Positions 6,091-21,069 of a stretch of DNA of 64,000 nt are shown here, in pieces. Source of the DNA: Gemmatimonadaceae bacterium (lineage in GTDB: Bacteria; Gemmatimonadota; Gemmatimonadetes; Gemmatimonadales; Gemmatimonadaceae); contig JADZCT010000039.1 in NCBI GenBank assembly GCA_020851455.1, positions 62,001 through 126,000 of the forward strand. The letters are read 5' to 3'. The first letter of the stretch is position 1. The number at the start of each line of letters is the position of its first letter. Both the position numbers and the translations under genes were made by a program. The notes below the pieces were generated by a model. It did no database searches. It was not told the DNA's origin and worked only from the letters and a program-made list of their open reading frames with translations.

Positions 6091-6699
6091 ATGGCGCATA
6101 CGCTGCCACCCCTTCCCTACGACTACGCCGCGCTCGAGCCGCACATTGACGCGCAGACGATGCAGATCCACCACGGCAAGCACCACCAGGGCTACGTGAA
6201 CAATCTCAACGCGGCAATCGAGAAGGCGCCGGAACTGGCTGGCTGGACACTCGATGACCTCTGCCGCAACATCGCGAAGGTGCCGGAGGCGGTGCGGACG
6301 GCGGTGCGCAACAACGCCGGCGGCCACTGGAACCACTCGCTCTTCTGGCAGCAGATGAAGCCGGGTGGAGGCGGTGCGCCCGCGGGCAAGCTTGCCGACG
6401 CAGTCAACGCGGCATTCGGCGACTTCAACAGCTTCAAGGAGAAGTTCGCCGCCGCTGCAGCCGGCCGCTTCGGCTCCGGCTGGGCGTGGCTGGTCGCCGG
6501 CGGCGGCAAGGTATCGGTGGAGAGCACGCCCAACCAGGACAACCCTCTGATGGAAGGGAAGACGCCCATCCTCGGCATAGACGTCTGGGAGCATGCCTAC
6601 TACCTGAAGTACCAGAACCGCCGGCCGGATTACGTTGCCGCGTGGTGGAACGTGGTGAACTGGGGCGACGTGGCCATGCGGTACGAAGCGGCGAAGTAG
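6091..6699 (+). CDS. sodA: Superoxide dismutase, Mn type (Fe/Mn family)
   Basis: 202 residues, the normal length for a cytoplasmic Fe/Mn superoxide dismutase, with no signal peptide. Metal ligands are His27, His82, Asp164 and His168 (in DVWEHAYY). The pair Gly77-Gly78 before HWNHSLFW and the Gln in [10 protein letters not shown] point to manganese rather than iron, although cambialistic enzymes share these traits. It converts superoxide to peroxide and oxygen. A GGAGG ribosome-binding site lies four bases before the ATG, and a strong hairpin follows the stop. It appears monocistronic. Confidence 0.95.
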
Positions 6700-6719
6700 C
6701 GGCAGACGAACCGCACCCG

Positions 6720-6748
6720 GGGCGCCCGCGGCAATGCCGCGAGCGCCC
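6720..6748. terminator. Hairpin between sodA and the antiporter gene
   Basis: Two six-base-pair stems separated by one mismatch (GGGCGC/GCGCCC and CGCGGC/GCCGCG) close a three-base loop. It lies between two convergent genes and could end transcription from both sides. The following run TGTTC is only weakly T-rich. Confidence 0.6.
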
Positions 6749-6751
6749 TGT

Positions 6752-8038
6752 TCACTTTCGTTCGCCGGGCTCGCGCGGGTGGTCCATTCCGCTTCGACGC
6801 ACGGGGCGCGTGGCGCGCCGCACGGTGTCCCGCATCCCTGACACAAGCTCGGAAAGGCCGCCCATCGAGTCGTCGCCGCGATCGGTGCCAGCGGGCACGC
6901 CAACGATCGCGCTGAGCCAGGGCGGCGTGATGAGCGTCGTGACGACCACCATCAGCATGATCGCTCCGAACTCGCCGCCGGCAATTGCCCCGGCGGCAAG
7001 CCCTACCTGCGCGAAGATGAGCCCCACCTCACCGCGCGGAATCATCGCCACGCCGATGAGGAGCCGGTTGCCCTGGAACGGACGCGGCACCCAGCCAGTC
7101 ACGAGCTTGCCGAGCACGCCTACCACGGTGAGCACCAGCCCGACCTGGAGTGCGCGCGCATCGGCGAGCGCCGTGAGGTCCACGGACGCGCCGATGGTCG
7201 CGAAGAAGATCGGTACGAAGAAGTAGCCGAGTTGAGAGATGCCCGCCTCGATCTCGCCCCGCTGCGGCGTGTCGTGCAGGACGAGCCCCGCGGCGAGCGC
7301 ACCGACGATCATCGCTGACCCGCTCGCCTCAGCGATGGTGGCGAGCGCGAGCGCAAAGGCGAGCGCAATCAGACCGAGCGCGCCGGTGGTCCTGAGCTTC
7401 TCGACCACGCGGAAGATGGGCGGCACGAAGTACGCGCCAGCCACGATGGCAATTGCGACGAACCCGAGCGCGAGTCCCGCGGTGCGCGTCACGCCGATCG
7501 CCGTGACCGCATCGCCCGCAACGATGCCCGACACCACGCTCAGGATGATGAGGCCGATGAGATCGTCGAGCACGGCGGCGCCGAGGACGATCTGGCCTTC
7601 CGGCGTGTCGAGGCGCCCGACGTCCCGCAGCACCCTCGCGGAGATGCCAATCGAGGTGGCGGTGAGCGCGGCGCCGGCCACGAGCGACTCGACCATGCCG
7701 AAGCCGAGCGCTCTGGTGGCGTAGTAGCCAATGACGAACGGCGTAGCGACGCCAACCACGGCAACCGTCGTTGCGTGCATCCCAACCTTGCGCAGCGAAC
7801 GAAGGTCGGTGTGCAACCCTATCTCGAAGAGAAGGATGAGCACGCCCAGCTCGGCCATCGCGGAGAGCGCCGAGTCACCGGGGTCAATGATCCCGAGGAC
7901 GCTCTTGCCAAGAAGCACGCCGGCGACGAGCTCCCCGAGCACGGCCGGCTGGCGGAGCCGCTGCGCAAGCTCGGCGAACAGCTTCGTTCCGACGATCAGC
8001 GCGGCGAGCGCGAGTAGCAGCGGTCCGAACTCGTGCAC
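6752..8038 (-). CDS. Cation:proton antiporter, CPA2 family
   Basis: 428-residue membrane protein of the Na+/H+ exchanger domain type, with about twelve hydrophobic segments. Conserved features are LGELVAGVLLGKSVLG near the N-terminus, the unwound-helix segment ATSIGISARVL, and the ion-binding pair Asp-Asp in GAAVLDDLIGLIIL. CPA2 proteins exchange Na+ or K+ for protons. There is no C-terminal RCK/TrkA domain, so it is shorter than KefB/KefC and has no obvious nucleotide or glutathione gating. The last 50 residues are charged and cytoplasmic. The start is GTG at 8038. The ion cannot be assigned. Confidence 0.9.
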   Translation of the reverse strand: MHEFGPLLLALAALIVGTKLFAELAQRLRQPAVLGELVAGVLLGKSVLGIIDPGDSALSAMAELGVLILLFEIGLHTDLRSLRKVGMHATTVAVVGVATPFVIGYYATRALGFGMVESLVAGAALTATSIGISARVLRDVGRLDTPEGQIVLGAAVLDDLIGLIILSVVSGIVAGDAVTAIGVTRTAGLALGFVAIAIVAGAYFVPPIFRVVEKLRTTGALGLIALAFALALATIAEASGSAMIVGALAAGLVLHDTPQRGEIEAGISQLGYFFVPIFFATIGASVDLTALADARALQVGLVLTVVGVLGKLVTGWVPRPFQGNRLLIGVAMIPRGEVGLIFAQVGLAAGAIAGGEFGAIMLMVVVTTLITPPWLSAIVGVPAGTDRGDDSMGGLSELVSGMRDTVRRATRPVRRSGMDHPREPGERK

Positions 8039-8074: not shown

Positions 8075-10054
8075 CTAGCGGGCCGCGTCCCCTTCGAGGT
8101 AGGTGTAGCCTTCCAGGCCCGCCACGTACTCGGCGATGAACATGTTTGCCTCGTCGCGGGTGATCGTGGTGCAGGCCTGCACCTTGCGCCGGAAGGTCGT
8201 GAGAAGGTCCGATGCGCGGTACTGCACGTAATTGAGGACTTCCGTGACCGTGTCGCCGTGGACGAGGTCGGTCACCTCGTGGCCGCCGTTGTTCAGGCGC
8301 ACATGGACGGCATTGGTGTCGCCAAAGAGGTTATGCAGGTCGCCGAGTATCTCCTGGTACGCGCCGGTAAGGAACACACCGAGCAGGTACGGCTCCCCGT
8401 CGTCGTTGAAGCGGTGGAGCGCGAGGCTGGGCTGCCCGTGCTTCCCGCCGATGAACCGGTCAATCTTCCCGTCGGAATCGCAACTCACGTCCTGGATGGT
8501 ACCGCGCCGCGTCGGCTCCTCGTCGAGGCGATGGATGGGCATGATCGGGAAGAGCTGGTCAATGGCCCATGCGTCCGGAAGCGACTGGAAGACGGAAAAG
8601 TTGGCGAAGTAGCGGTCAACGAGCGCCGCTTCGATGTCGGGGAGCACATCTTCGAATGTGCGGCGGTGCTTCTGCGCCACCCGCGCGACCTGGTTGACCG
8701 TGCAGAGGTAGAGGCGCTCGGCGACGGCGCGGCTGCGCAGGTCGAGGATCCCGGAGTTGAAGAAGGTCTGGGCGCGTTCCTTGTCGAACGTTGCATCGTG
8801 GTAGATCTCGCGCATCCTGCGCATCGAGACGTTCTTGCGCGAGACAGTCTTCAGGTCATCGGCCATCTCGTGGAGCAGCGGATGGTCGTCCGCGTTGAGC
8901 TGCGGCACCGGCGGGTCGGCGGCCGACTCGACGTCAATCACGCTGAGCAGGAGGAGGGCGTGGTGAGCCGTGAGGGCGCGTCCCGACTCGCTGATGATGT
9001 CCGGCGCGGGCACGTCGTGGTCGGTGCACATCTTGGCCAGCGCGTAGACGATGTCGTTTGCGTACTCCTGCAGGGAGTAGTTCACGCTTGCGTGCGCCGT
9101 TGACTGGGAGCCGTCGTAGTCCACGCCAAGCCCGCCACCGACGTCAACGTGGGTGATGTCGAGGCCGAGCGCGCGGAGCTCGACATAGTAGCGCGCCAGC
9201 TCCTGGAGCCCCTGCTTGATGAAGCGGATGTCGGTGATCTGGGAGCCGAGGTGGCAGTGGATGAGCTTGACGATGTCGAGGCGCCCCGCGGCGCGGAGCT
9301 TGTCCACCACCTGCATGAGCTGCGACGGCCCGAGCCCGAACTTGGACTTCTCGCCGCCCGACTGCGCCCAGCGTCCGCTGCCCTCGGTGCTGAGCTTGAT
9401 GCGGATTCCGATGGTGGGCGTGACGTTCATCTGGTCGGCGGCGCGCAGGAGAACATCGAGCTCGCTCACCTGCTCGACGACGATGAACACCTTGTGGCCG
9501 AGCCGCTGCCCCATAAGGGCGAGGCGCATGAACTCCTCGTCCTTGTAGCCGTTGCAGACGATCAGATGGTCGCTAGTCTCGCGAATCGCGAGCACCGCCT
9601 GCAGTTCCGGCTTCGAGCCGCACTCCAGGCCGACACCAGTCTTCTGGCCGAATTCGACTATCTCCTCGACCACATGGCGCTGCTGGTTGACCTTGATCGG
9701 GAAGACGGTCGTGTACTTGCCGGCGTAGGCGAACTCCTCGATGGCAGAGCGGAACTTGGCGTCGAGCTGCTCGATCCTGCTGCGAAGGATGTCGGAGAAG
9801 CGGAGGAGCACCGGGAGGGCGACGCCCTGCGCCTCGAGGTCGCGCGCCAGTTCGTACAGGTCCACCGTACGATCCGGTCGCGCCTTGTCGGGGCGGACGA
9901 CCACGTGTCCCGCGTCGCTGACGTCGAAGTAGCCCGCGCCCCACCCCTCCACTCCGTACAGCGCCTTGGCGGCGGCGATCGTCCATTCCTCACGGTGCGC
10001 GGGCGGCGCCGCAGATGGTTGCGCCGTGTCCTCAGGCGGATGCTGTACGGTCAT
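8075..10054 (-). CDS. speA: Biosynthetic arginine decarboxylase
   Basis: 659 residues, usual for SpeA. It is PLP-dependent and converts arginine to agmatine, the first step of a putrescine/spermidine route. The PLP lysine is Lys121 in FPIKVNQQRH. Other family blocks are LECGSKPELQAVLA, the basic GSGRWAQSGGEKSKFGL, and VGGGLGVDYDGSQS in the barrel. The frame stays open far upstream, but that part has no similarity to the family and overlaps the divergent DUF502 gene. I start at the ATG at 10054, which lies eight bases after a TACAAT box. No agmatinase or agmatine deiminase gene is in the window. Confidence 0.95.
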   Translation of the reverse strand: MTVQHPPEDTAQPSAAPPAHREEWTIAAAKALYGVEGWGAGYFDVSDAGHVVVRPDKARPDRTVDLYELARDLEAQGVALPVLLRFSDILRSRIEQLDAKFRSAIEEFAYAGKYTTVFPIKVNQQRHVVEEIVEFGQKTGVGLECGSKPELQAVLAIRETSDHLIVCNGYKDEEFMRLALMGQRLGHKVFIVVEQVSELDVLLRAADQMNVTPTIGIRIKLSTEGSGRWAQSGGEKSKFGLGPSQLMQVVDKLRAAGRLDIVKLIHCHLGSQITDIRFIKQGLQELARYYVELRALGLDITHVDVGGGLGVDYDGSQSTAHASVNYSLQEYANDIVYALAKMCTDHDVPAPDIISESGRALTAHHALLLLSVIDVESAADPPVPQLNADDHPLLHEMADDLKTVSRKNVSMRRMREIYHDATFDKERAQTFFNSGILDLRSRAVAERLYLCTVNQVARVAQKHRRTFEDVLPDIEAALVDRYFANFSVFQSLPDAWAIDQLFPIMPIHRLDEEPTRRGTIQDVSCDSDGKIDRFIGGKHGQPSLALHRFNDDGEPYLLGVFLTGAYQEILGDLHNLFGDTNAVHVRLNNGGHEVTDLVHGDTVTEVLNYVQYRASDLLTTFRRKVQACTTITRDEANMFIAEYVAGLEGYTYLEGDAAR

Positions 10055-10062
10055 GTGGCGTA

Positions 10063-10068
10063 ATTGTA
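10063..10068 (-). promoter_or_regulatory. TACAAT -10 element of speA
   Basis: Read on the minus strand, TACAAT is eight bases before the speA ATG with no Shine-Dalgarno sequence in between. That spacing implies a leaderless or nearly leaderless transcript. No TTGACA-like -35 box is seen. Confidence 0.55.
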
Positions 10069-10152
10069 TGGCGGAGGGTCCGCGTGCGGTATCTCCGGCG
10101 CCGCGGCGCGCATCCGTGGCAGCGGCGCCGTGGGCGGCCGCGCTCCCGGCGC

Positions 10153-10158
10153 TATTAT
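10153..10158 (+). promoter_or_regulatory. TATTAT -10 element of the DUF502 gene
   Basis: TATTAT lies seven bases before the ATG at 10166 and four before the ATG at 10163. It faces away from the speA box, so the roughly 100-base region holds two divergent short-leader promoters. Confidence 0.5.
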
Positions 10159-10162
10159 TACG

Positions 10163-10777
10163 ATGATGCCCGACCGCACACCCGGCGCCCGCGACGGCGC
10201 GATCCCGGCCTCCAGCCGACCGATGAAGCGGCTCGTCTCGTATTTCCTGCGCGGCCTGCTCATCACCCTCCCCGCCGTATTTACGGGCTGGCTGTGCTAC
10301 GAGGCGTTTCGCCGCGTTGACAGCTGGCTCGGCATTGACATCCCCGGCGTGGGGTTCCTGGTGACGCTCGTCCTGATAACGCTGCTCGGGTTCCTCGGCT
10401 CGAATCTCGTGACACGCGGCATGGTGGCCGCGGTCGAGAGCCTGATAGAGCGGCTCCCGTTCGTGCGCCTGGTGTACACCTCCACGAAGGACCTGCTCGA
10501 CGCATTCGTGGGCCAGAAGAAGCGATTCAACAAGCCGGTGGCGGTGCACCTTTCGGACGACGGCGCGATCCGCGTCCTCGGTTTCGTCACGCAGGATTCG
10601 CTCGCACAGCTCGGTCTGGAAGGCACGATCATGGTCTATGTGCCGTTCTCGTACTCGCTGGCGGGCTGGACCTGTCTTGCCCCGGCAAGCCGGGTGAAGA
10701 GCCTCGATACGTCGAGCGCCGACTTCATGGCGTTCGTGGTCTCGGGCGGCGTCGTTGACGTCCCGAAGCTCGGATGA
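10163..10777 (+). CDS. DUF502 family membrane protein
   Basis: 204 residues from this start. Two transmembrane helices are visible (about residues 27-45 and 53-72), followed by the conserved DUF502 core with [19 protein letters not shown] and [17 protein letters not shown]. The biochemical role of DUF502 proteins is not established. Two adjacent ATGs (10163, 10166) sit right after a TATTAT box; the ATG at 10223 ([11 protein letters not shown]) matches where many homologues begin and is the main alternative. The 3' end lies just before the amidohydrolase gene, so the two are probably cotranscribed. Confidence 0.82.
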
Positions 10778-13028: not shown

Positions 13029-14669
13029 ATGTCTTTCCGCATCGTTCGCCCCATCGCCACGGCCGTCGCAGGCCTCGGCGCCGCCGCCTGCGTCGCGACC
13101 GACGCACCGTCCGCAATGACCGGGCTCGACGCGCGCCTGGCGCAATACGCCGAGGTCACGCTCTCGACGGACACCTCGCTGCTCACGCCGAAAGAGCTGA
13201 AGATGATTCCGGTGCTCATTGGCGCCGCGCGCGCAATGGACCCGATTTTCCGGAACGAGCTCTACCCGGCGTACGACTCGCTGATGAAAGCCACCAGCGA
13301 CCCCGTCACGCGGAAGTACATCGAAGTGAACGTCGGCCCATGGGACCGGCTTGCGAACGACACGCCGTTCATCGCGGGCGTGGGCCCGAAGCCTCCGGCC
13401 GCCAACTTCTACCCGCGCGACATGACGCGCGAGGAGTTCGAGCGCGCGGTCGCGGAGGGGCCTCCGGCGCACGCGGATTCCCTGAAGGATCTCTACACCC
13501 TCGTGCGTCGTGACTCAAAGGGCAGACTCACGGCCGAGCCGTACCACATCGCGTACAAGGGCTGGCACGAAGCGGCTGCGTCGAAGCTGAGAGAGGCGGC
13601 CGCGCTTGCCGAAGACGCAGGGCTGAAGCGCTATCTGAACGCGCGGGCCGAAGCCCTGCTCAGCGACAACTACAGACAGAGCGACATTGCGTGGATGGAC
13701 ATGAAGGCCAACACGCTCGACATCGTAATAGGCCCGATCGAGGTTTACGAAGACGGACTTTTCGGCTACAAGGCATCGCACGAAGCGTACGTGCTCGTGA
13801 AGGACAAGGCATGGAGCGACCGGCTGGCCCGCTTCGCGGCGTTCCTCCCCGCCCTGCAGCGCGGCCTCCCGGTTCCCGGCGCCTACAAGACCGAGCGTCC
13901 GGGTACCGACTCGGACCTCAACGCGTACGATGTGCTTTACTACGGCGGCGCGGCGAACATAGGCGGCAAGACGATCGCGATCAACCTCCCGAACGACGAA
14001 GAGGTTCAGCTCCGCAAGGGCACCCGACGCCTCCAGCTCAAGAACGTCATCCGCGAAAAGTTCGACCGCATCCTGCTGCCGATCGCAAATGAGCTGATCG
14101 TGCCCGAACAGGCAGAGATGATCCAGTTCGACGCGTTCTTCGAGAACACAATGTTCCACGAGGTCGCGCACGGGCTTGGCATCAAGAACACGCTGAACGG
14201 GCGCGGTAGCGTGCGCGCGGCGCTGAAGGAGCGCTACTCGGCGCTCGAGGAAGGCAAGGCCGACATCCTGGGCCTCTACATGGTGCAGAGTCTCGTGAAG
14301 AGCGGCAATCTGCCTGGCGAGGACGTGCGCCAGAACTACGTGGATTTCCTCGCGAGTCTCTTCCGCTCGACGCGCTTCGGCGCCGCCGACGCGCATGGCC
14401 GCGCCAACATCGCCGCGTTCAACTTTCTCCAGGAACAGGGTGCGTTCCCGCGCGACTCCACGACGGGCCGCTACGCCGTGGACTTCACGAAAATGGAAGC
14501 CGGGATGAACGCGCTCGTCACCAAGATCATCACGATGCAGGGCGACGGAGATTATGCGGCCGCCGGCGAGTTCCAGCAGAAATACGGCAGCATATCGCCG
14601 ACGCTGCAGCAGGATCTCGCACGGCTCAACGCCAAGGCGATCCCCGTGGATCTTCGGTTCCGCCAGTAA
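13029..14669 (+). CDS. Secreted M49 (dipeptidyl peptidase III-like) metallopeptidase
   Basis: 546 residues. The N-terminus has a hydrophobic signal with a possible lipoprotein Cys at 21. The zinc site is HEVAH (His377, Glu378, His381), and the second motif is EEGKAD (407-412), whose Glu supplies the third ligand in DPP III enzymes. Classical DPP III has the hexapeptide HEXXGH; here it is a pentapeptide HEXXH, as reported for the Caldithrix abyssi enzyme, which is also close in length. DPP III removes dipeptides from short peptides. The family assignment rests on the paired motifs and the length. It converges with the S9 peptidase gene, three bases away. Confidence 0.8.
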   Translation: MSFRIVRPIATAVAGLGAAACVATDAPSAMTGLDARLAQYAEVTLSTDTSLLTPKELKMIPVLIGAARAMDPIFRNELYPAYDSLMKATSDPVTRKYIEVNVGPWDRLANDTPFIAGVGPKPPAANFYPRDMTREEFERAVAEGPPAHADSLKDLYTLVRRDSKGRLTAEPYHIAYKGWHEAAASKLREAAALAEDAGLKRYLNARAEALLSDNYRQSDIAWMDMKANTLDIVIGPIEVYEDGLFGYKASHEAYVLVKDKAWSDRLARFAAFLPALQRGLPVPGAYKTERPGTDSDLNAYDVLYYGGAANIGGKTIAINLPNDEEVQLRKGTRRLQLKNVIREKFDRILLPIANELIVPEQAEMIQFDAFFENTMFHEVAHGLGIKNTLNGRGSVRAALKERYSALEEGKADILGLYMVQSLVKSGNLPGEDVRQNYVDFLASLFRSTRFGAADAHGRANIAAFNFLQEQGAFPRDSTTGRYAVDFTKMEAGMNALVTKIITMQGDGDYAAAGEFQQKYGSISPTLQQDLARLNAKAIPVDLRFRQ

Positions 14670-14672
14670 ACC

Positions 14673-17672
14673 CTACGGCACTATCGCCGCCGGCAGCTTC
14701 TTCGAGAGGAACGGCACGCCCTCCGTCATCCACCTGGGCGCCGGCGCGCCCTTGAGGAAGTGGTCGAAGTACTCGAAGTAGCGCGTCGTGAGATCCTTAC
14801 GGTTCGCCAGGCCGCGCAGCCCGTGGCCTTCGCCGGGATAGGCGAGCATGTACGCCTCCTTCCCATTGTAGCGCAGGGCGTTGTAGAACTTCATTCCTTC
14901 GTTGAACGAGACGGTCGGGTCAGCCGTGCCGTGCATGATGAGGATCGGCTGCGTCACTTCAGGCGCGTGCGTGATCGCCGACTCGAACCGGAACAGGTCG
15001 GGCTTCTCCCACGGCGACACTCCCCACCGCCCCTGCCCGTACATGTAGTACTCGTTGCCGTTCTCGCCGCTCCCGCCGCTCACCTGGTACGACCAGCCCC
15101 ACGACTGGCTGAAGTCGGTGTACAGGTCGGTGACACCGGCACCCATCCCGACGGCCGCAAACAGGCGTGATCGCGTTCCAATGAACGCGGCGCCTTCGCC
15201 GCCATAGCTGTGGCCGTGCACGCCGATGAACTTCGGGTCGGCGTAGCCGAGCTCGATGACCTTGCGCGTTGCGGCCTCGACGGCGTTCAGCTGGTCGCTG
15301 TGCGATGAACCGGTGTGGTAGTACACGTCGGCGAACATCGTGATGTAGCCGCGGCTCACCGCCTCCACCGGCAGCGCGCCCATTCCCGTGATGTACGTTG
15401 GCGGCGTGTAGCGGTTCAGGTTCTGCGAGTTCTTCTCGTAGAAGCTCACGAGCATCGGCAGCTTCTTGCCGGGAGCCCATCCTTCCGGGAGCGAGAGGAA
15501 TCCCTGGAGCTTGTGGCCGTCACGATCCTTGTAGTCGAAAAGCACGCGCTTGGCGACCCAGCGATACTCCGCCTGCTGCGGATTGGCGTCGGTGATCCGG
15601 CGGGCATCGGAGAACGCCGGTCCGGAGACGCGGAGATCCGGGAACTCGGCGAAGGTCTGGCGCGTGAACAGATAGCGGTCGGTTTTCGCGGCGCGCGTCG
15701 GAGTGCCGTATGCCGCATCGTCGTAGACGAGCTCGGTGAGCTTCCCGGCCTCGAGGCGCGAGAAGCCCGCCTTCTTGGTGTACTCACCGAACGTCGCGAA
15801 CAGCATGGGCTTCGCCACATCCACCTCGCGCCTGCGACGCTCGGCGAGCGGGTCCGCGTCGTCAACCGGCTCCGTGCGAACCCAGTGGTATCCGGTCTCC
15901 GTCCTGGCACCAGCGCCAAGGGTGAGGTTCCGCGCCTGGGACCCGTCCACCGGGAGCAGCCATGTATCGTAGAGGTGCTCGACCACAGCGGCGGATCCGT
16001 CCGGCGTCCATGCAACGACCGGGAAGTGCGGCCTGGGGCCCGTGTAGTCGTCGCGCGTGTTGATGAAACTCGGCGCGGCGGAGCCACCCAGGATGCGCGA
16101 CGTGCCCGCGTCCAGGTCGTAGGCCTGGTACTTGCCGTCCTTCCAGTAGAGGAATGTGCGGCCGTCGGGCGAGATGCCAACCACGCCGCCGCGGTCAATG
16201 ACGTGCCCCTTCAGGAAGAGGGTGCGCTCGCCCGTGGCCGTATTCACGCGGTACAGGTCAGCCTGGGCCGGCTTCCAATCGGAGAAGTAGGCGCGCTGGT
16301 CGTTCCCGACGGCCCACTTTCCGTCGAACGAAACGTCGAGCTGGCGCATTGTCGTATCGGCGAGGTGAATGTACCGCCCCGCAGTTACGTCAAACGCCTG
16401 GCGGTACGTGAAGTTCTCTTCCTGCGGCGCACGGATCATCTGCGCCGACTGGATCCGCGTATCCGTGGTGCGCCAGACGTCCACGTCGGCAATCGAGTCA
16501 GTGCCTGGCTTCCGGCCCGTGTCGGCCTGAGGAACCTGCGCCTTGGCGCCAAAGAATACGCGCGCCCTGTCGCCGCTCCACGAGAGCGGCGCGCGCTCGC
16601 TGAGCACCCAGTCCTCCTGCCACCCGGCGGCGTTGGACGGATCGAGCACGGCGACGGCGGCACGCGGATCGTCGAAGGCTTTGCGGATGTCGGCCCAGGC
16701 CAGCAGCACGTTGGCGCGCTCGCGCATGCGTGGCACCGCCTTGCCCTTGAGCACAGCGAGTCCCTGCCCGTCAGCGGTCCATGCGAGGCGCGAGTAGCGC
16801 TGCGCATCGTTGTCGAGCGTGTAGGTGCGGGTGGAGCCGAGGTCAACGACGAACGCGCCGTTGGCGTCGTCCACCGCGGCGTCCACGGTGTACGCGAGGA
16901 GCGTCCCCTGCCGGCTGAAGGCAATATCGCCAACGGTGCCGAGCGTCTGGCTCCGGCCCGTCGCAAGGTCCACCAGAATCACGTCCGCGCCGCGAGGCGC
17001 GGATGCGCCGGCGCCGGCGTCACCGCCGCCCTGCCCCCCGCCCGGCCCATCGGGGCCGCCACGGCCACCGCCTCCGCCGCCGGCGGCTCCGCGCCGGCGC
17101 AGGATGAGGTGGGTCGAGGCGTTCGAGAACGTGGCGCTGGCAATATCCTTCCACGCCTGCGTTGCGCCGGTTTGCAGATTGCGCAACTCGTAGCGCCTGA
17201 GCGGCTGCTGCGGGGTTGCGCCGCTGCGGCCGCCTGCTCCCGCTACGGCAGGCGGCGGCCCGGGCTGCTGCGCCGGAGGCAGCGCGCCCGCCGAGTCAGG
17301 GCCAGCGCCCCCTCGCCCGCTCCGGCTCGCGGCGCGGGCAGGCATCGAGTCCACCTGGTAGACGATCCAGCGCGAGTCATTCGAGAACGCCGGGTTCGAC
17401 GCGTGCGCGATCACGACTTCCTGGTCGGTATCGAGGTTCCTGAGGCGAAGCTCCGGCCTGGAGTCGTTCTGGGGAAGGTTCGTGAGCCGCAGGACGCCCG
17501 CGGTCCAGCGTCCATCGCCCGAGATCTGCGCTCCCTCGATATTCCGCCAACGGGTGTAGTCGTCCACGCCGAGGATCTTCTTGCCGGTCGCCTGACCGCG
17601 AGCGAGCGACGGGACGACGAGCACGAGAGCGGCAGCCGGGATCAACCTGCGAAGGGGCGCAGTCACGGACAC
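14673..17672 (-). CDS. Secreted S9 family (prolyl oligopeptidase-like) serine peptidase
   Basis: 999 residues. A signal peptide (about 1-28) leads into a long beta-propeller region of WD/TolB-like repeats, then an alpha/beta-hydrolase domain from about residue 730. The catalytic triad is Ser822 (GHSYGGEG), Asp918 (TADPTVS) and His950 (GEGHGL). The propeller normally limits access to peptides. A Gly/Arg/Asp-rich stretch of about 30 residues is inserted near residues 200-230. I prefer GTG at 17672 because GGAG lies seven bases upstream and the signal peptide follows directly; an ATG at 17720 adds 16 polar residues. The substrate is unknown. Confidence 0.9.
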   Translation of the reverse strand: MSVTAPLRRLIPAAALVLVVPSLARGQATGKKILGVDDYTRWRNIEGAQISGDGRWTAGVLRLTNLPQNDSRPELRLRNLDTDQEVVIAHASNPAFSNDSRWIVYQVDSMPARAASRSGRGGAGPDSAGALPPAQQPGPPPAVAGAGGRSGATPQQPLRRYELRNLQTGATQAWKDIASATFSNASTHLILRRRGAAGGGGGGRGGPDGPGGGQGGGDAGAGASAPRGADVILVDLATGRSQTLGTVGDIAFSRQGTLLAYTVDAAVDDANGAFVVDLGSTRTYTLDNDAQRYSRLAWTADGQGLAVLKGKAVPRMRERANVLLAWADIRKAFDDPRAAVAVLDPSNAAGWQEDWVLSERAPLSWSGDRARVFFGAKAQVPQADTGRKPGTDSIADVDVWRTTDTRIQSAQMIRAPQEENFTYRQAFDVTAGRYIHLADTTMRQLDVSFDGKWAVGNDQRAYFSDWKPAQADLYRVNTATGERTLFLKGHVIDRGGVVGISPDGRTFLYWKDGKYQAYDLDAGTSRILGGSAAPSFINTRDDYTGPRPHFPVVAWTPDGSAAVVEHLYDTWLLPVDGSQARNLTLGAGARTETGYHWVRTEPVDDADPLAERRRREVDVAKPMLFATFGEYTKKAGFSRLEAGKLTELVYDDAAYGTPTRAAKTDRYLFTRQTFAEFPDLRVSGPAFSDARRITDANPQQAEYRWVAKRVLFDYKDRDGHKLQGFLSLPEGWAPGKKLPMLVSFYEKNSQNLNRYTPPTYITGMGALPVEAVSRGYITMFADVYYHTGSSHSDQLNAVEAATRKVIELGYADPKFIGVHGHSYGGEGAAFIGTRSRLFAAVGMGAGVTDLYTDFSQSWGWSYQVSGGSGENGNEYYMYGQGRWGVSPWEKPDLFRFESAITHAPEVTQPILIMHGTADPTVSFNEGMKFYNALRYNGKEAYMLAYPGEGHGLRGLANRKDLTTRYFEYFDHFLKGAPAPRWMTEGVPFLSKKLPAAIVP

Positions 17673-17739
17673 GATGGGACTCCGGTGATAGTGAGGGGAG
17701 GGGCGACGGCCGTGCTGCACACCGCGCGCGAGTGCGCGC

Positions 17740-17994
17740 TCACTCGTCGCGCTTGACTACCGCGTCCGGTTCGCGCTCGACGACGATGGTGAACTCTTTC
17801 GCGAGGGCTACGATTCCCGCGACGGCGGTCCAGAGCGGCAGTAGCACCGCGCCGGCAATCCCGGCGGTGAGCGGCATGTCAATGAGCGTACGCCCTTCGG
17901 CGTTGCGCACGATCACGCGGCGCACGTTGCCCTCGTGAACCAGTTCCTTGAGCCGGTCCTTCAGCTTGTCGGCGCCAACGTTGATGTGTTCCAT
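17740..17994 (-). CDS. DUF4342 small membrane protein
   Basis: 84 residues. An acidic/basic N-terminal helix (about 7-20, DKLKDRLKELVHEGNVRR) and the beta segment VIVRNAEGRTLIDMPL are followed by one transmembrane helix (about 43-66) and a charged tail, which is the DUF4342 layout. The function of the family is unknown. It lies 67 bases upstream of the S9 peptidase gene on the same strand and could be cotranscribed. Confidence 0.78.
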   Translation of the reverse strand: MEHINVGADKLKDRLKELVHEGNVRRVIVRNAEGRTLIDMPLTAGIAGAVLLPLWTAVAGIVALAKEFTIVVEREPDAVVKRDE

Positions 17995-18143: not shown

Positions 18144-19238
18144 ATGATGCGACTTGGCGGGGTTTCACTTGCACTGGTGGCGGGCGCGTCGCTGGCCGCT
18201 GCCGGCGCCCAGGATGCGCCCAGGCGGGTGACTGGCACAGTCACGACGGACGGAGGCGAGCGGGTGGTCGGCGCCGACGTGCGGCCGTTGGGTTCGCCAA
18301 CGGGCGCCACGACGGACGAAGCCGGCGCGTTTTCCTTCGTCGTTGCGACGGGAAGCCTCGCGCACGTGCTGGTGCGGCGCATTGGCTTCCGGCCCGAGAC
18401 CGTGGCGGTAGCCCCGGCGGCGGGGCCGATAGCCGTGCACCTCACGCGGACGATCCAGTTGATCGCGCCAGTGGTCGTAACCGAAGAGGCCAACGCGCTG
18501 AGCACGATCGGGAAGGTTCGGGCGCGCGCGCGCACTTCATCGAACGGGACATTCCTCTTCCGCGACCATTTCATGCAGGCGCTGCCATCCCGGTTCACCG
18601 ACATCATGAGGCGTGTGGCCGGTGTCAGAATCATGCGCACGCCGCTGAACCCGGAGGCCGTCGTTCTCCGAACGAACAACTGCGAGCCGCTCTATTTCAT
18701 AGACGGCATGTCGGTGATGGGCCCGTCCTTCGATCCGAACAGCCAGCCGGTGGATGCGATCGAGGCAATCGAAGTGTACGCGAGCCCAGCGCTCGTGCCA
18801 CCGGAGTTTCGGGGTCCGCTGTCGGCGCAGGGGTGCGGTTCGATCCTGATCTGGACGCGGCGGGGCGAGCCACGCCCACGGCGCACGACGATTGGCGCGG
18901 ACTCGATCATGCGACTGCTCGACGCGCACCGCGTATTCGACGCCACGGAGGTTGACCGCCCCGCCGAGCCCATCTCGATCCCGACCCCCGCGTATCCGGA
19001 TTCGCTGCTCGCAGCTGGCACCGGCGGCACGGTGGTGCTCGAGTTCATCGTTACGGCGCGCGGCCGCGTGGATCCTGTTTCCATCGGGATCGTCCTGGCC
19101 ACGCATGCGCAGTTCGCCGAACGCGCGAAGGCCGTCGCGGCCGACGCGGTGTTCACCCCCGCCGAACGCGCCGGCCATGCCGTGGCGCAGGTCTACCAGC
19201 TTCCCGTCGTCTTCACGCCGCCTGCTTCGCGCCCCTGA
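18144..19238 (+). CDS. Exported plug-domain/TonB C-terminal fusion protein
   Basis: 364 residues with three parts. After a signal peptide (about 1-23) comes a carboxypeptidase-regulatory-like beta sandwich (about 27-100, with VTGTVTTDGGERVVGADV). Next is a region like the plug of TonB-dependent receptors (about 130-245), containing YFIDGMSVMGP, VDAIEAIEVYASPALVPPEF and a Gly-Ser-Ile-Leu-Ile-Trp strand. Last is a TonB C-terminal domain (about 262-355, TPAYPDSLLAAGTGGTVVLEF). There is no beta-barrel, so it cannot be a receptor pore by itself. The domain calls are by motif; the function is unknown. The ATG at 18147 is an alternative start. Confidence 0.75.
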   Translation: MMRLGGVSLALVAGASLAAAGAQDAPRRVTGTVTTDGGERVVGADVRPLGSPTGATTDEAGAFSFVVATGSLAHVLVRRIGFRPETVAVAPAAGPIAVHLTRTIQLIAPVVVTEEANALSTIGKVRARARTSSNGTFLFRDHFMQALPSRFTDIMRRVAGVRIMRTPLNPEAVVLRTNNCEPLYFIDGMSVMGPSFDPNSQPVDAIEAIEVYASPALVPPEFRGPLSAQGCGSILIWTRRGEPRPRRTTIGADSIMRLLDAHRVFDATEVDRPAEPISIPTPAYPDSLLAAGTGGTVVLEFIVTARGRVDPVSIGIVLATHAQFAERAKAVAADAVFTPAERAGHAVAQVYQLPVVFTPPASRP

Positions 19239-19386: not shown

Positions 19387-21069
19387 TCAGTCGAACGCTG
19401 CTCCGACCATGATCTTCCGGATGAGCGTGTACGGGCTGCCGTGCGAGATCGAGTTGGTCTGCGTGGGCTGGCCCTTGGCATCGCCGCCGGTGCCATGCTT
19501 CTGGTATTCGTCCGGGCCGGTGACCGCGTCGAGGTTGGCCCAGAAGTCGGTGGTGATGGCGTTGTACGTCACGTCGGTCACCTGGCGGGTGATCTTGCCG
19601 TTCTTGATTTCCCAGAAGATGTGGCCGCCGAACTGGCCATTGTAGCGCTGCTGGTCAATCGAGTAGCTGCCGCGCCCGTCAATCATCACGCCGTCCTTCA
19701 CGTCGGCGATCAGGTCGGCGAGCCTGGGCGAGTTGGCTGGCCCGGGAAGCAGGTGAACGTTGGGCATCCTGAGGAACGGATAGTCGCGCCAGCTGTTCCC
19801 GAAAGTGCATCCGCGGCTGAAGTTCTCGTTGATGTAGTGCGCGGTCTCGCGGTTTGTCTGGAGCCCCACCAGCGTGCCCTCGCGCACGATGTCCCACTTC
19901 ATCGTCTTCACGCCGTCGTCGTCGTAGCCGCACGAGCCGATTCCGTCGTCGGTCTTGTCGGCAACGATGTTCATATGCTTCGACCCGTACTTCAACTTGC
20001 CGATGTCGCTGAGCTTCACGAAGCTCGTGCCGGCGTAGTTGGCCTCGTAGCCCACTATGCGATCCACTTCCGTCGCGTGCGCGACGATTTCGTGGATCGT
20101 GAGCATCTGGTGGCTTGGCGAGAGCACGAGGTCGCGCAGCCCGCTCCCCCCGAGGGGTTTAGCGGTGCACATCTCCACGGCGTCCGTCGCCACCTTCTCT
20201 GCGTTTTCGAGGAAGTCCGTCTTTTCAGCCACCTCCCAGCCCGCGCACCCCGGGACTCCGGGATAACTGCGCGTGCGGGTCACGTCGCCCACCTTGGCGG
20301 TGACGCTCATGGTGGGTGTGGTGACGTATAGCTCCTGCTCGATGTACGACCCTTCGCTAGAAGCGAAGTAGCGCCACTCATACGAGTGCGTGGCCGAGAC
20401 GTTGACGGACGTGACGCCCTTCACCGCGCGGGCTTTGTCTACGATTGCCTGCGCCCATGCGTTCTTGTCGGTCTCGGACACCGACGACGGGTGCTTCTGC
20501 ATCGGCGTGACCCAGTGGTCAATGTACTTCTGCACCGGCGCGAGCTTCATGTCGGCCTTCTTCGCGATCGCGCTCGCCTTGGCGACAGCGGTCGCGACTC
20601 CGGCAACGCGGCGAAGTTCGTCGTCCGTGATGATCGGGCTCGACGCAAAGCCCCACACGCCCGAGTGGATCACGCGGACGCCGAATCCCGCAGGCTGGCG
20701 GTTCTCCTCGGTGGGGATTTCGCGCAACTGCTGACCGCCTCGCCCACCGAATCCGCCGCGCCCACCGCCACCGCCACCGCCGCCACCGCCCCGGCCACCG
20801 CCCCGGCCACCGCGTCCGCCGTTGCCCTCGCTCCAGCTCGCCTGGCCGCCCGGCGGGCTCGCAGTGACGGTGAACCGCACGTCCGCGTACGAGCAGCCCA
20901 GCCGCCTGGCTTCGGCAAGGATGATATCGGCCATACCCTTGAACCGCGACTCGAGGAGCGAGCCCGGAGGCGTGTCGCCGAAGACGTTGAGGACCAGGTC
21001 ACGCGACCAGAACGCCACCGCGGCGGCGCCAGCCGTTCCCTTCAGGAAGTCTCTGCGCGAGGAAGACAT
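19387..21069 (-). CDS. tldD: Tat-exported TldD-family metalloprotease
   Basis: 560 residues. TldD is the catalytic half of the TldD/TldE (PmbA) protease that degrades unfolded peptides and matures peptide antibiotics in E. coli, where it is cytoplasmic. The metal motif HExxxH is present (His326, Glu327, His331 in HEIVAHATE). The N-terminus is an exact Tat signal (SRRDFLKGTAGAAAVAF). A 32-residue Gly/Arg tract (residues 81-112) interrupts the N-terminal domain, making the protein longer than E. coli TldD. It lies 45 bases downstream of the pmbA-like gene, so the two are likely cotranscribed. Confidence 0.92.
   Translation of the reverse strand: MSSSRRDFLKGTAGAAAVAFWSRDLVLNVFGDTPPGSLLESRFKGMADIILAEARRLGCSYADVRFTVTASPPGGQASWSEGNGGRGGRGGGRGGGGGGGGGGRGGFGGRGGQQLREIPTEENRQPAGFGVRVIHSGVWGFASSPIITDDELRRVAGVATAVAKASAIAKKADMKLAPVQKYIDHWVTPMQKHPSSVSETDKNAWAQAIVDKARAVKGVTSVNVSATHSYEWRYFASSEGSYIEQELYVTTPTMSVTAKVGDVTRTRSYPGVPGCAGWEVAEKTDFLENAEKVATDAVEMCTAKPLGGSGLRDLVLSPSHQMLTIHEIVAHATEVDRIVGYEANYAGTSFVKLSDIGKLKYGSKHMNIVADKTDDGIGSCGYDDDGVKTMKWDIVREGTLVGLQTNRETAHYINENFSRGCTFGNSWRDYPFLRMPNVHLLPGPANSPRLADLIADVKDGVMIDGRGSYSIDQQRYNGQFGGHIFWEIKNGKITRQVTDVTYNAITTDFWANLDAVTGPDEYQKHGTGGDAKGQPTQTNSISHGSPYTLIRKIMVGAAFD
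20734..20829 (-). repeat. Gly/Arg-rich low-complexity tract within tldD
   Basis: These bases encode residues 81-112, almost only Gly with spaced Arg, and include ten consecutive Gly. The DNA is a run of GGC/CGG-type triplets and may be unstable in length. Confidence 0.8.

Follow-up and report, generated by a model that had tools for sequence, protein, structure and literature searches.

One gene in the 64,000-nucleotide stretch of Gemmatimonadaceae DNA analyzed here (the whole stretch is termed the window) encodes an exported protein of 364 residues, which is built from the periplasmic front end of a SusC-type outer-membrane receptor and the receptor-binding domain of TonB. We regard this protein as a real fusion conserved in one bacterial family and, judging from its domains, homologues and gene neighborhoods, probably as an accessory of outer-membrane import. 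No description of this architecture, namely an N-terminal extension (NTE), a plug and a TonB C-terminal domain (TonB_C) in one chain, was found in the open-access literature as judged from titles and abstracts.

Domain composition and predicted structure

The gene is a single open reading frame running from ATG to TGA, and its features are listed in Table 1. A sequence-only reading had placed a carboxypeptidase-like domain, a plug-like domain and TonB_C in one exported chain without a barrel, and this architecture was confirmed by Pfam, by the homologues and by an AlphaFold2 model with its structure matches. In Pfam, TonB_C was matched over residues 281-358 with an E value of 3.5e-9 (37.4 bits, over the cut-off of 24.6), CarboxypepD_reg over residues 29-92 with an E value of 4.7e-7 (30.5 bits, just below the cut-off of 32.3), and Plug over residues 148-216 with an E value of 5.3e-4 (20.9 bits, just below the cut-off of 23.9). 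Among the NCBIfam models, the start of SusC/RagA matched residues 28-199 (E value of 2e-9, far below the whole-receptor cut-off) and tonB_Cterm matched residues 282-359 (E value of 1.2e-8). CarboxypepD_reg, Plug and TonB_C were all over their Pfam cut-offs in one chain in six of the seven homologous fusions scanned (L039, L040, L042, L043, L045, and L046); in the seventh, L036 of the window's own genus, only Plug and TonB_C were.

Table 1. Features of the fusion gene and its flanking genes, in window positions (a slash in a motif marks the cleavage site)
Feature	Positions	Strand	Basis
DUF4342 protein, divergent neighbor, outside the fusion	17740..17994	-	Pfam
Whole gene, 364 aa: signal peptide, NTE, plug, TonB_C	18144..19238	+	ORF, Pfam, NCBIfam, AlphaFold2, structure match
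Signal peptide, residues 1-22, A-G-A/Q cleavage site, without lipobox	18144..18209	+	Sequence; A-x-A/Q-like site in 66/69 scorable homologues
CarboxypepD_reg / SusC-type NTE, residues 27-105	18222..18458	+	Pfam, NCBIfam, 9hfj Z 13.8
TonB-box-like strand, residues 107-114, I-A-P-V-V-V-T-E; family degenerate relative to SusC consensus	18462..18485	+	Box comparison, models
Plug domain without barrel, residues 120-241, final strand C-G-S-I-L-I-W-T-R	18501..18866	+	Pfam, structure match
Cys180, first Cys of co-varying pair	18681..18683	+	Alignment
Cys231, second Cys of co-varying pair	18834..18836	+	Alignment
Linker, residues 242-269, low conservation, no membrane segment	18867..18950	+	Model, conservation, hydropathy
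TonB C-terminal domain, residues 270-358, Y-P at 284-285	18951..19217	+	Pfam, NCBIfam, 6i97_D Z 11.3
TldD/PmbA-type protein, convergent neighbor, outside the fusion	19387..21069	-	Pfam

The 123 residues that follow the plug are occupied by TonB_C and leave no room for a 22-stranded barrel. The protein has a signal peptide instead of an inner-membrane anchor for contact with ExbB/ExbD, no hydrophobic segment is found after it (the highest mean hydropathy over 19 residues was 1.53), and the linker, as read from the sequence, lacks a proline-rich spacer. Among the 69 fusions that could be scored for export signals (5 frames were not scorable), pattern matching found an A-x-A/Q-like site after the hydrophobic core in 66, a lipobox in four, and a later 19-residue stretch with a mean hydropathy of at least 1.8 in five, the maximum being 1.99. 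The window protein is expected to be a soluble periplasmic protein, as the sequence-only reading had supposed.

The AlphaFold2 model, based on an alignment of 72 sequences, had a pLDDT of 85.4 and a pTM of 0.56, and we take its individual domains as confidently predicted and their mutual arrangement as uncertain. The folds of all three domains were matched by VIA-align. Residues 25-107 matched the NTE of SusC (9hfj, Z 13.8), and residues 271-361 matched the TonB C-terminal domain taken from the FoxA complex (6i97_D, Z 11.3, rmsd 1.5). Residues ~117-245 matched the plugs of SusC (6z9a_B, Z 10.2; 6zlt_B, Z 8.9), as well as those of Fiu (Z 9.7), FyuA (Z 9.3), and CirA (Z 8.8).

Residues 110-112, which lie at the place of the TonB box, formed a strand in the full-length model, and this strand was gone in a model of residues 1-262 built on the same family. 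Most other elements of the NTE and plug were kept in the truncated model, albeit the strand at 96-102 was shortened to 96-100 and a short helix appeared at 115-118. The loss of the strand on removal of TonB_C, the sole basis for the putative pairing, hints that residues 110-112 may pair with TonB_C of their own chain, which is the simplest reading; the mean pLDDT at the two blocks of this putative contact was 74 and 62. The box region of the window copy reads P-V-V-V-T. Across the fusions, the SusC consensus L-x-E-V-V-V-T-G shrinks to L-x-x-V-x-V with V-V-T-G lost in most of them, and positions 110 and 112 are about equally conserved in barrel-less NTE-plug proteins without TonB_C ("mini-plugs"; see below). 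A canonical TonB box under selection in the fusions was considered and found unsupported.

Distribution, origin and conservation of the fusion

We searched 298 genomes of the window's own phylum with a profile of the full architecture, scoring six candidates per genome. At least 71 matches in at least 60 genomes, all belonging to the window's own family (f1), carried the full architecture among the matches listed; two of these were cut at contig ends. Some profile match was found in 102 genomes of the family, 42 of which had no full-architecture match among the matches listed (all of these figures were counted by hand). No genome of another family fell below an E value of 2e-56 among the matches listed, and the weakest full-architecture match listed had an E value of 3.4e-68. 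The matches listed outside f1 stop by position 268 of the 380 profile positions, before TonB_C, and represent mini-plugs. The fusion is patchy in the window's genus, with a match in 5 of the 18 genomes (one being a contig-end fragment), and no fusion was among the matches listed for G210, a 2.3-Mb genome of genus g35. A tblastn search of plasmids gave no match, and six short peptide patterns run across genome contigs retrieved a single TonB-type protein, in a Gemmatimonadetes genome.

The homologues of the window protein are single chains in many genomes, sharing 25-50% identity with it (54% for one fragment). Thus, the frameshift joining two ancestral genes that the sequence-only reading had considered was not borne out, and a frameshift or assembly artefact as the source of the architecture is ruled out by the at least 71 same-architecture matches listed.

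In a FastTree phylogeny of the NTE-plug core without TonB_C (134 sequences: 71 fusions, 34 mini-plugs, and 29 SusC sequences), all of the fusions were placed under one node with a support of 0.92, which also held L140, a frame-broken copy, and the mini-plug L160 beside L047; many of the inner nodes were weak. In the TonB_C phylogeny, a split separated 71 of the 74 fused domains, together with the corresponding piece of L140, from the remaining TonB_C sequences, the exceptions being L047, L135, and L136. This split carries no support value, and among the 33 domains used for comparison are duplicates from overlapping loci and some anchorless proteins. Altogether, one main fusion event is likely, and a second, separate origin is possible for L047. 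At the L047 locus (8653-10695; G033), the genes next to the divergent fusion encode a separate TonB_C protein and an M56 protein of the BlaR1 type that contains HEAT repeats. In L140 (G164; 6148-7694), the plug and TonB_C are encoded in two overlapping frames near SusC and SusD. Since the plug piece of L140 groups with the fusions in the first tree and its TonB_C piece with the fused domains in the second, L140 is a broken copy of the fusion, due either to a true break or to an assembly error. Tandem or neighboring pairs were seen for fusions (L118, L126, and L104, in G117, G263, and G154) and for mini-plugs (L153, L155, and L145).

Mean information per column was 2.55 bits in the plug, 2.50 in TonB_C, 2.09 in the NTE, and about 1.9 in the linkers. 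W237, G232, P285, G295, and V347 were invariant in the alignment, and the Y-P motif of TonB_C was nearly so (P285 in 72 and Y284 in 69 of the 72 rows). All three domains are under purifying selection in close homologue pairs: dN/dS (NG86) was below 1 in 27 of 27 domain comparisons over nine pairs, none including the window copy, and ranged from 0.12 to 0.63 for the NTE, 0.02 to 0.48 for the plug, and 0.03 to 0.51 for TonB_C.

Cys180 and Cys231 co-vary, with both present in 58 of the 72 rows and neither in 13, which fall into two separate clades of genera g35 and g38; the last row is a fragment without the first position. Both cysteines occurred in all 33 intact mini-plugs and in 58 of the 71 fusions (neither in the other 13), and none of the 29 SusC-like receptors had either of them. 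In the barrel-less proteins, the final strand of the plug has I-W-T-R or a close variant, versus I-T-T-K or a close variant in most of the SusC sequences shown. The cysteine pair is typical of free-standing plugs, and it would be natural to suppose that a disulfide closes the plug where a barrel would otherwise hold it. An origin of the fusion as a receptor remnant is made unlikely by the dN/dS values and the conserved cysteine pair.

Gene neighborhoods of the fusion and mini-plugs

Because both flanking genes lie on the other strand, the window copy stands alone. Upstream of it (window positions 13029-17720) are genes for a distant M49-family peptidase and an S9-family peptidase, both probably secreted to judge from their N-termini. 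No ECF sigma or regulator family was matched by Pfam in the six flanking window genes, one of which had no match at all, and a promoter and terminator scan gave nothing above chance.

Neighbors were counted for the 71 fusions whose downstream sequence extends for at least 1.5 kb, including the fragments L038, L133, and L134 and excluding L091, L092, and L106, which lack that length. A SusC-like frame was found on the same strand within 1 kb in 18 of the 71, the fusion being first in all 18, and a frame matching the SusD model was also present in 12 of these loci. Within 3.5 kb on any strand, 27 fusions had a SusC-like frame and 44, including the window copy, had none. The order at L043 is SusC-SusD-fusion. 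Pfam found CarboxypepD_reg and plug in all five SusC-like neighbors that were scanned. Of three SusD-like neighbors, two matched SusD_RagB, and the match of a further SusD-like cluster (c12) was just below the cut-off.

The fusion phylogeny was correlated with that of the neighboring SusC sequences (Mantel r of 0.62, 24 pairs, permutation p of 0.0001), in a test that used one fusion per two-fusion locus and does not remove shared descent. The two fusions of G154 pair with matching receptor clades in both trees (L104 with L123, L117 with L132), and in G085 the pairing of fusion and receptor is only coarse. Genomes of genus g35 have a slot between alanine dehydrogenase and mreB (genes named by eye) that contains the fusion, SusC and c12 in G154 and G226, and the fusion alone in G157, G074, G266, and apparently G194, where mreB is uncalled. 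G074 and G194 are small genomes (1.8 and 2.1 Mb, respectively), in each of which PF03544 found only two TonB_C domains, one in the fusion and the other in a frame of 253 or 268 residues that we take as the predicted TonB; their plug matches numbered 18 and 21, respectively, with the fusion included. The retention of the fusion without an adjacent receptor in this slot and in these two genomes suggests that it acts in trans. An energizer is present in the window's genome, where ExbD was matched five times and two of the TonB_C proteins carry a hydrophobic anchor.

A gene of about 154 codons recurs beside the fusion at 13 loci of genus g36 (L098, L100, L101, L108, L116, and others), directly downstream wherever the map was read; the product at L116, the only one scanned, had a weak Adhesin_E match (E value of 4.2e-5). 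A shared dehydrogenase E3/E2 locus for the own-genus copies and L043 of G033, where the gene order agrees, was considered and dropped: the E2 proteins are about 35% and the E3 proteins about 44% identical, and the complexes look like paralogues.

Mini-plugs are widespread in the class (for example L137-L161), with the cysteine pair and an I-W-T-R type end; in the few scanned, only the general CarboxypepD_reg and Plug models matched among plausible families. A same-strand SusC within 1 kb was found for 18 of 71 fusions versus one of 33 mini-plugs (Fisher p of 0.0056), the single case being the frame-broken fusion L140. The contrast was smaller when SusC was counted on either strand up to 3.5 kb away (27 of 71 versus 5 of 33, p of 0.023) and when SusC or SusD was counted in this way (27 of 71 versus 6 of 33, p of 0.069). 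The mini-plugs in these comparisons are the top profile matches, and the contrast depends on the sample, since SusC, SusD and a mini-plug run on one strand in four of the seven own-genus genomes looked at (G000, G001, G003, and G008, not G005, G014, or G015; loci L227 on G000:C85, L228, L229, and L230). Two of the six SusC-like loci looked at in G000, those on C85 and C93, have a mini-plug and four do not. The run on C93 (L236, 3422-10186), a second one resembling SusC-SusD-mini-plug in the window's own genome, contains a very divergent plug-like protein (fusion-model score of 51, no plug-model match). As mini-plugs without TonB_C also follow SusC and SusD, TonB_C is not needed for the association with SusCD. 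The association belongs to barrel-less plugs more widely, and mini-plugs are possibly a third component of SusCD operons.

Proposed function and alternative explanations

The fusion shares with the N-terminal part of SusC/RagA the NTE, the box-like strand and the plug in the same order, but it lacks the barrel, carries the cysteine pair (in most fusions) and a tryptophan in the last plug strand, and has mostly lost the box consensus. It shares the TonB_C fold and the Y-P motif with TonB proteins (the nearest TonB-type domain among those compared was 41% identical), from which it differs in having a signal peptide, no membrane anchor, and a plug before TonB_C. Mini-plugs share with the fusion the NTE-plug core, the cysteine pair and the I-W-T-R type of plug end; in contrast to the fusion, they have no TonB_C and occur in other families of the class as well. 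The myxochelin receptor MxcH (NF038079) likewise combines TonB_C with receptor domains in one chain. Its NCBIfam model matches window residues 279-361 weakly (E value of 5e-5) at positions 7-87 of 792, at the start of a model of receptor size, whereas TonB_C of the fusion is C-terminal and no barrel is present.

The sequence-only reading had proposed an adaptor or competitor in TonB-dependent transport. Involvement in such transport is supported by the 18 of 71 fusions encoded ahead of SusC, the correlation of the two trees and the retained TonB fold, and the choice between adaptor and competitor is one that sequence does not distinguish. Our main reading, to which we give a probability of about 0.5, is that the fusion is a soluble periplasmic accessory of TonB-dependent outer-membrane import that aids coupling. 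TonB_C would pair with the TonB box of a SusC-type receptor by adding its edge strand to it, in the manner of TonB itself, and the NTE, box-like strand and plug would hold or recruit an anchored TonB, or act as a latch over TonB_C of their own chain until a receptor box displaces it. The contact with anchored TonB is plausible because the NTE-plug part of the Myxococcus receptor Oar, taken as an isolated fragment (residues 24-248), is reported to bind the TonB C-terminal domain in a two-hybrid test (PMC6434023), and a role of the SusC NTE in choosing among TonB proteins has been suggested (PMC7782687). The fusion could thereby couple or gate the small number of anchored TonB proteins to specific receptors, and would do so in trans at loci that have no receptor gene next to them. 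Against the accessory reading stand the 44 of 71 fusions without a nearby SusC, the patchy presence and the degenerate box.

The same contacts could instead lower transport, and such a competitor or brake is unlikely, albeit the leading alternative. The soluble TonB_C would occupy receptor boxes and the box-like strand would occupy anchored TonB, so that transport is lowered or a receptor is chosen. Excess soluble C-terminal fragments of TonB inhibit TonB function, the fusion itself cannot be driven by ExbBD as it has no membrane anchor, and its gene is often beside a receptor gene. On the other hand, a brake is less natural than an aid for a protein whose gene comes before those of an importer and which some genomes of 1.8-2.1 Mb retain.

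Somewhat more doubtful is a fuller version of the latch, a self-latched coupler hinted at by the pair of structure models. The box-like strand of the plug would sit on TonB_C of the same chain until the box of a receptor displaces it, upon which the released strand would engage anchored TonB. If this were true, TonB would reach SusC-type receptors via a diffusible intermediate as well as by direct contact, and TonB-dependent transport would gain a third, soluble component.

We consider it a little less probable again that the fusion is a periplasmic chaperone or assembly factor for SusC-type receptors, or has another envelope role unrelated to TonB energization. The position of the gene just before SusC fits a chaperone, as does a published result on a SusC: after loss of its NTE, growth on the substrate of that SusC could not be detected, an effect that its authors connect with biogenesis or cellular function (PMC7782687). 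A chaperone leaves unexplained, however, why TonB_C is retained with the TonB fold and the Y-P motif.

The nearest precedent is VreA (PA0674) of the PUMA3 cell-surface signaling system of Pseudomonas aeruginosa, which is described as having a signal sequence, no barrel, and a receptor signaling domain followed by a TolA/TonB-like C-terminal domain (PMC2729926). By analogy, the receptor-front-end domains of the fusion might pass the state of the outer membrane to an inner-membrane regulator, and the authors of that work consider that one domain of VreA may meet an unknown outer-membrane receptor (PMC2729926). In place of the NTE and plug, however, VreA has an STN signaling domain, for which the window protein gave no match at E values up to 1, and its described partners are an ECF sigma factor and its regulator rather than SusC/SusD (PMC2729926). 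No sigma or FecR-type family was found in the subset of neighbors scanned, and one fusion, L047, has the BlaR1-type M56 protein nearby. We hold such a relay to be improbable, slightly more so than a chaperone.

A decaying receptor remnant or an assembly or frameshift artefact without function, to which the NTE and plug of the window copy just under their Pfam cut-offs, the broken L140 and the patchy presence might point, is very hard to reconcile with at least 71 same-architecture matches listed, nearly all intact or cut only by contig ends and mostly in one clade, with purifying selection in close pairs and with the paired conservation of the cysteines.

Most accounts of TonB-dependent transport have two parties in contact, an anchored TonB and a receptor in the outer membrane. 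The fusion is a conserved and soluble protein with parts of both sides of this contact; encoded just ahead of SusC-like receptors in a quarter of its relatives and kept in some very small genomes, it points to a possible missing periplasmic component of this transport. A further outcome is a set of plug proteins, spread across the class, that stand free of a barrel and have a putative cysteine staple. As a soluble reagent with two sides, the fusion may also help in studying how TonB selects from many receptors.
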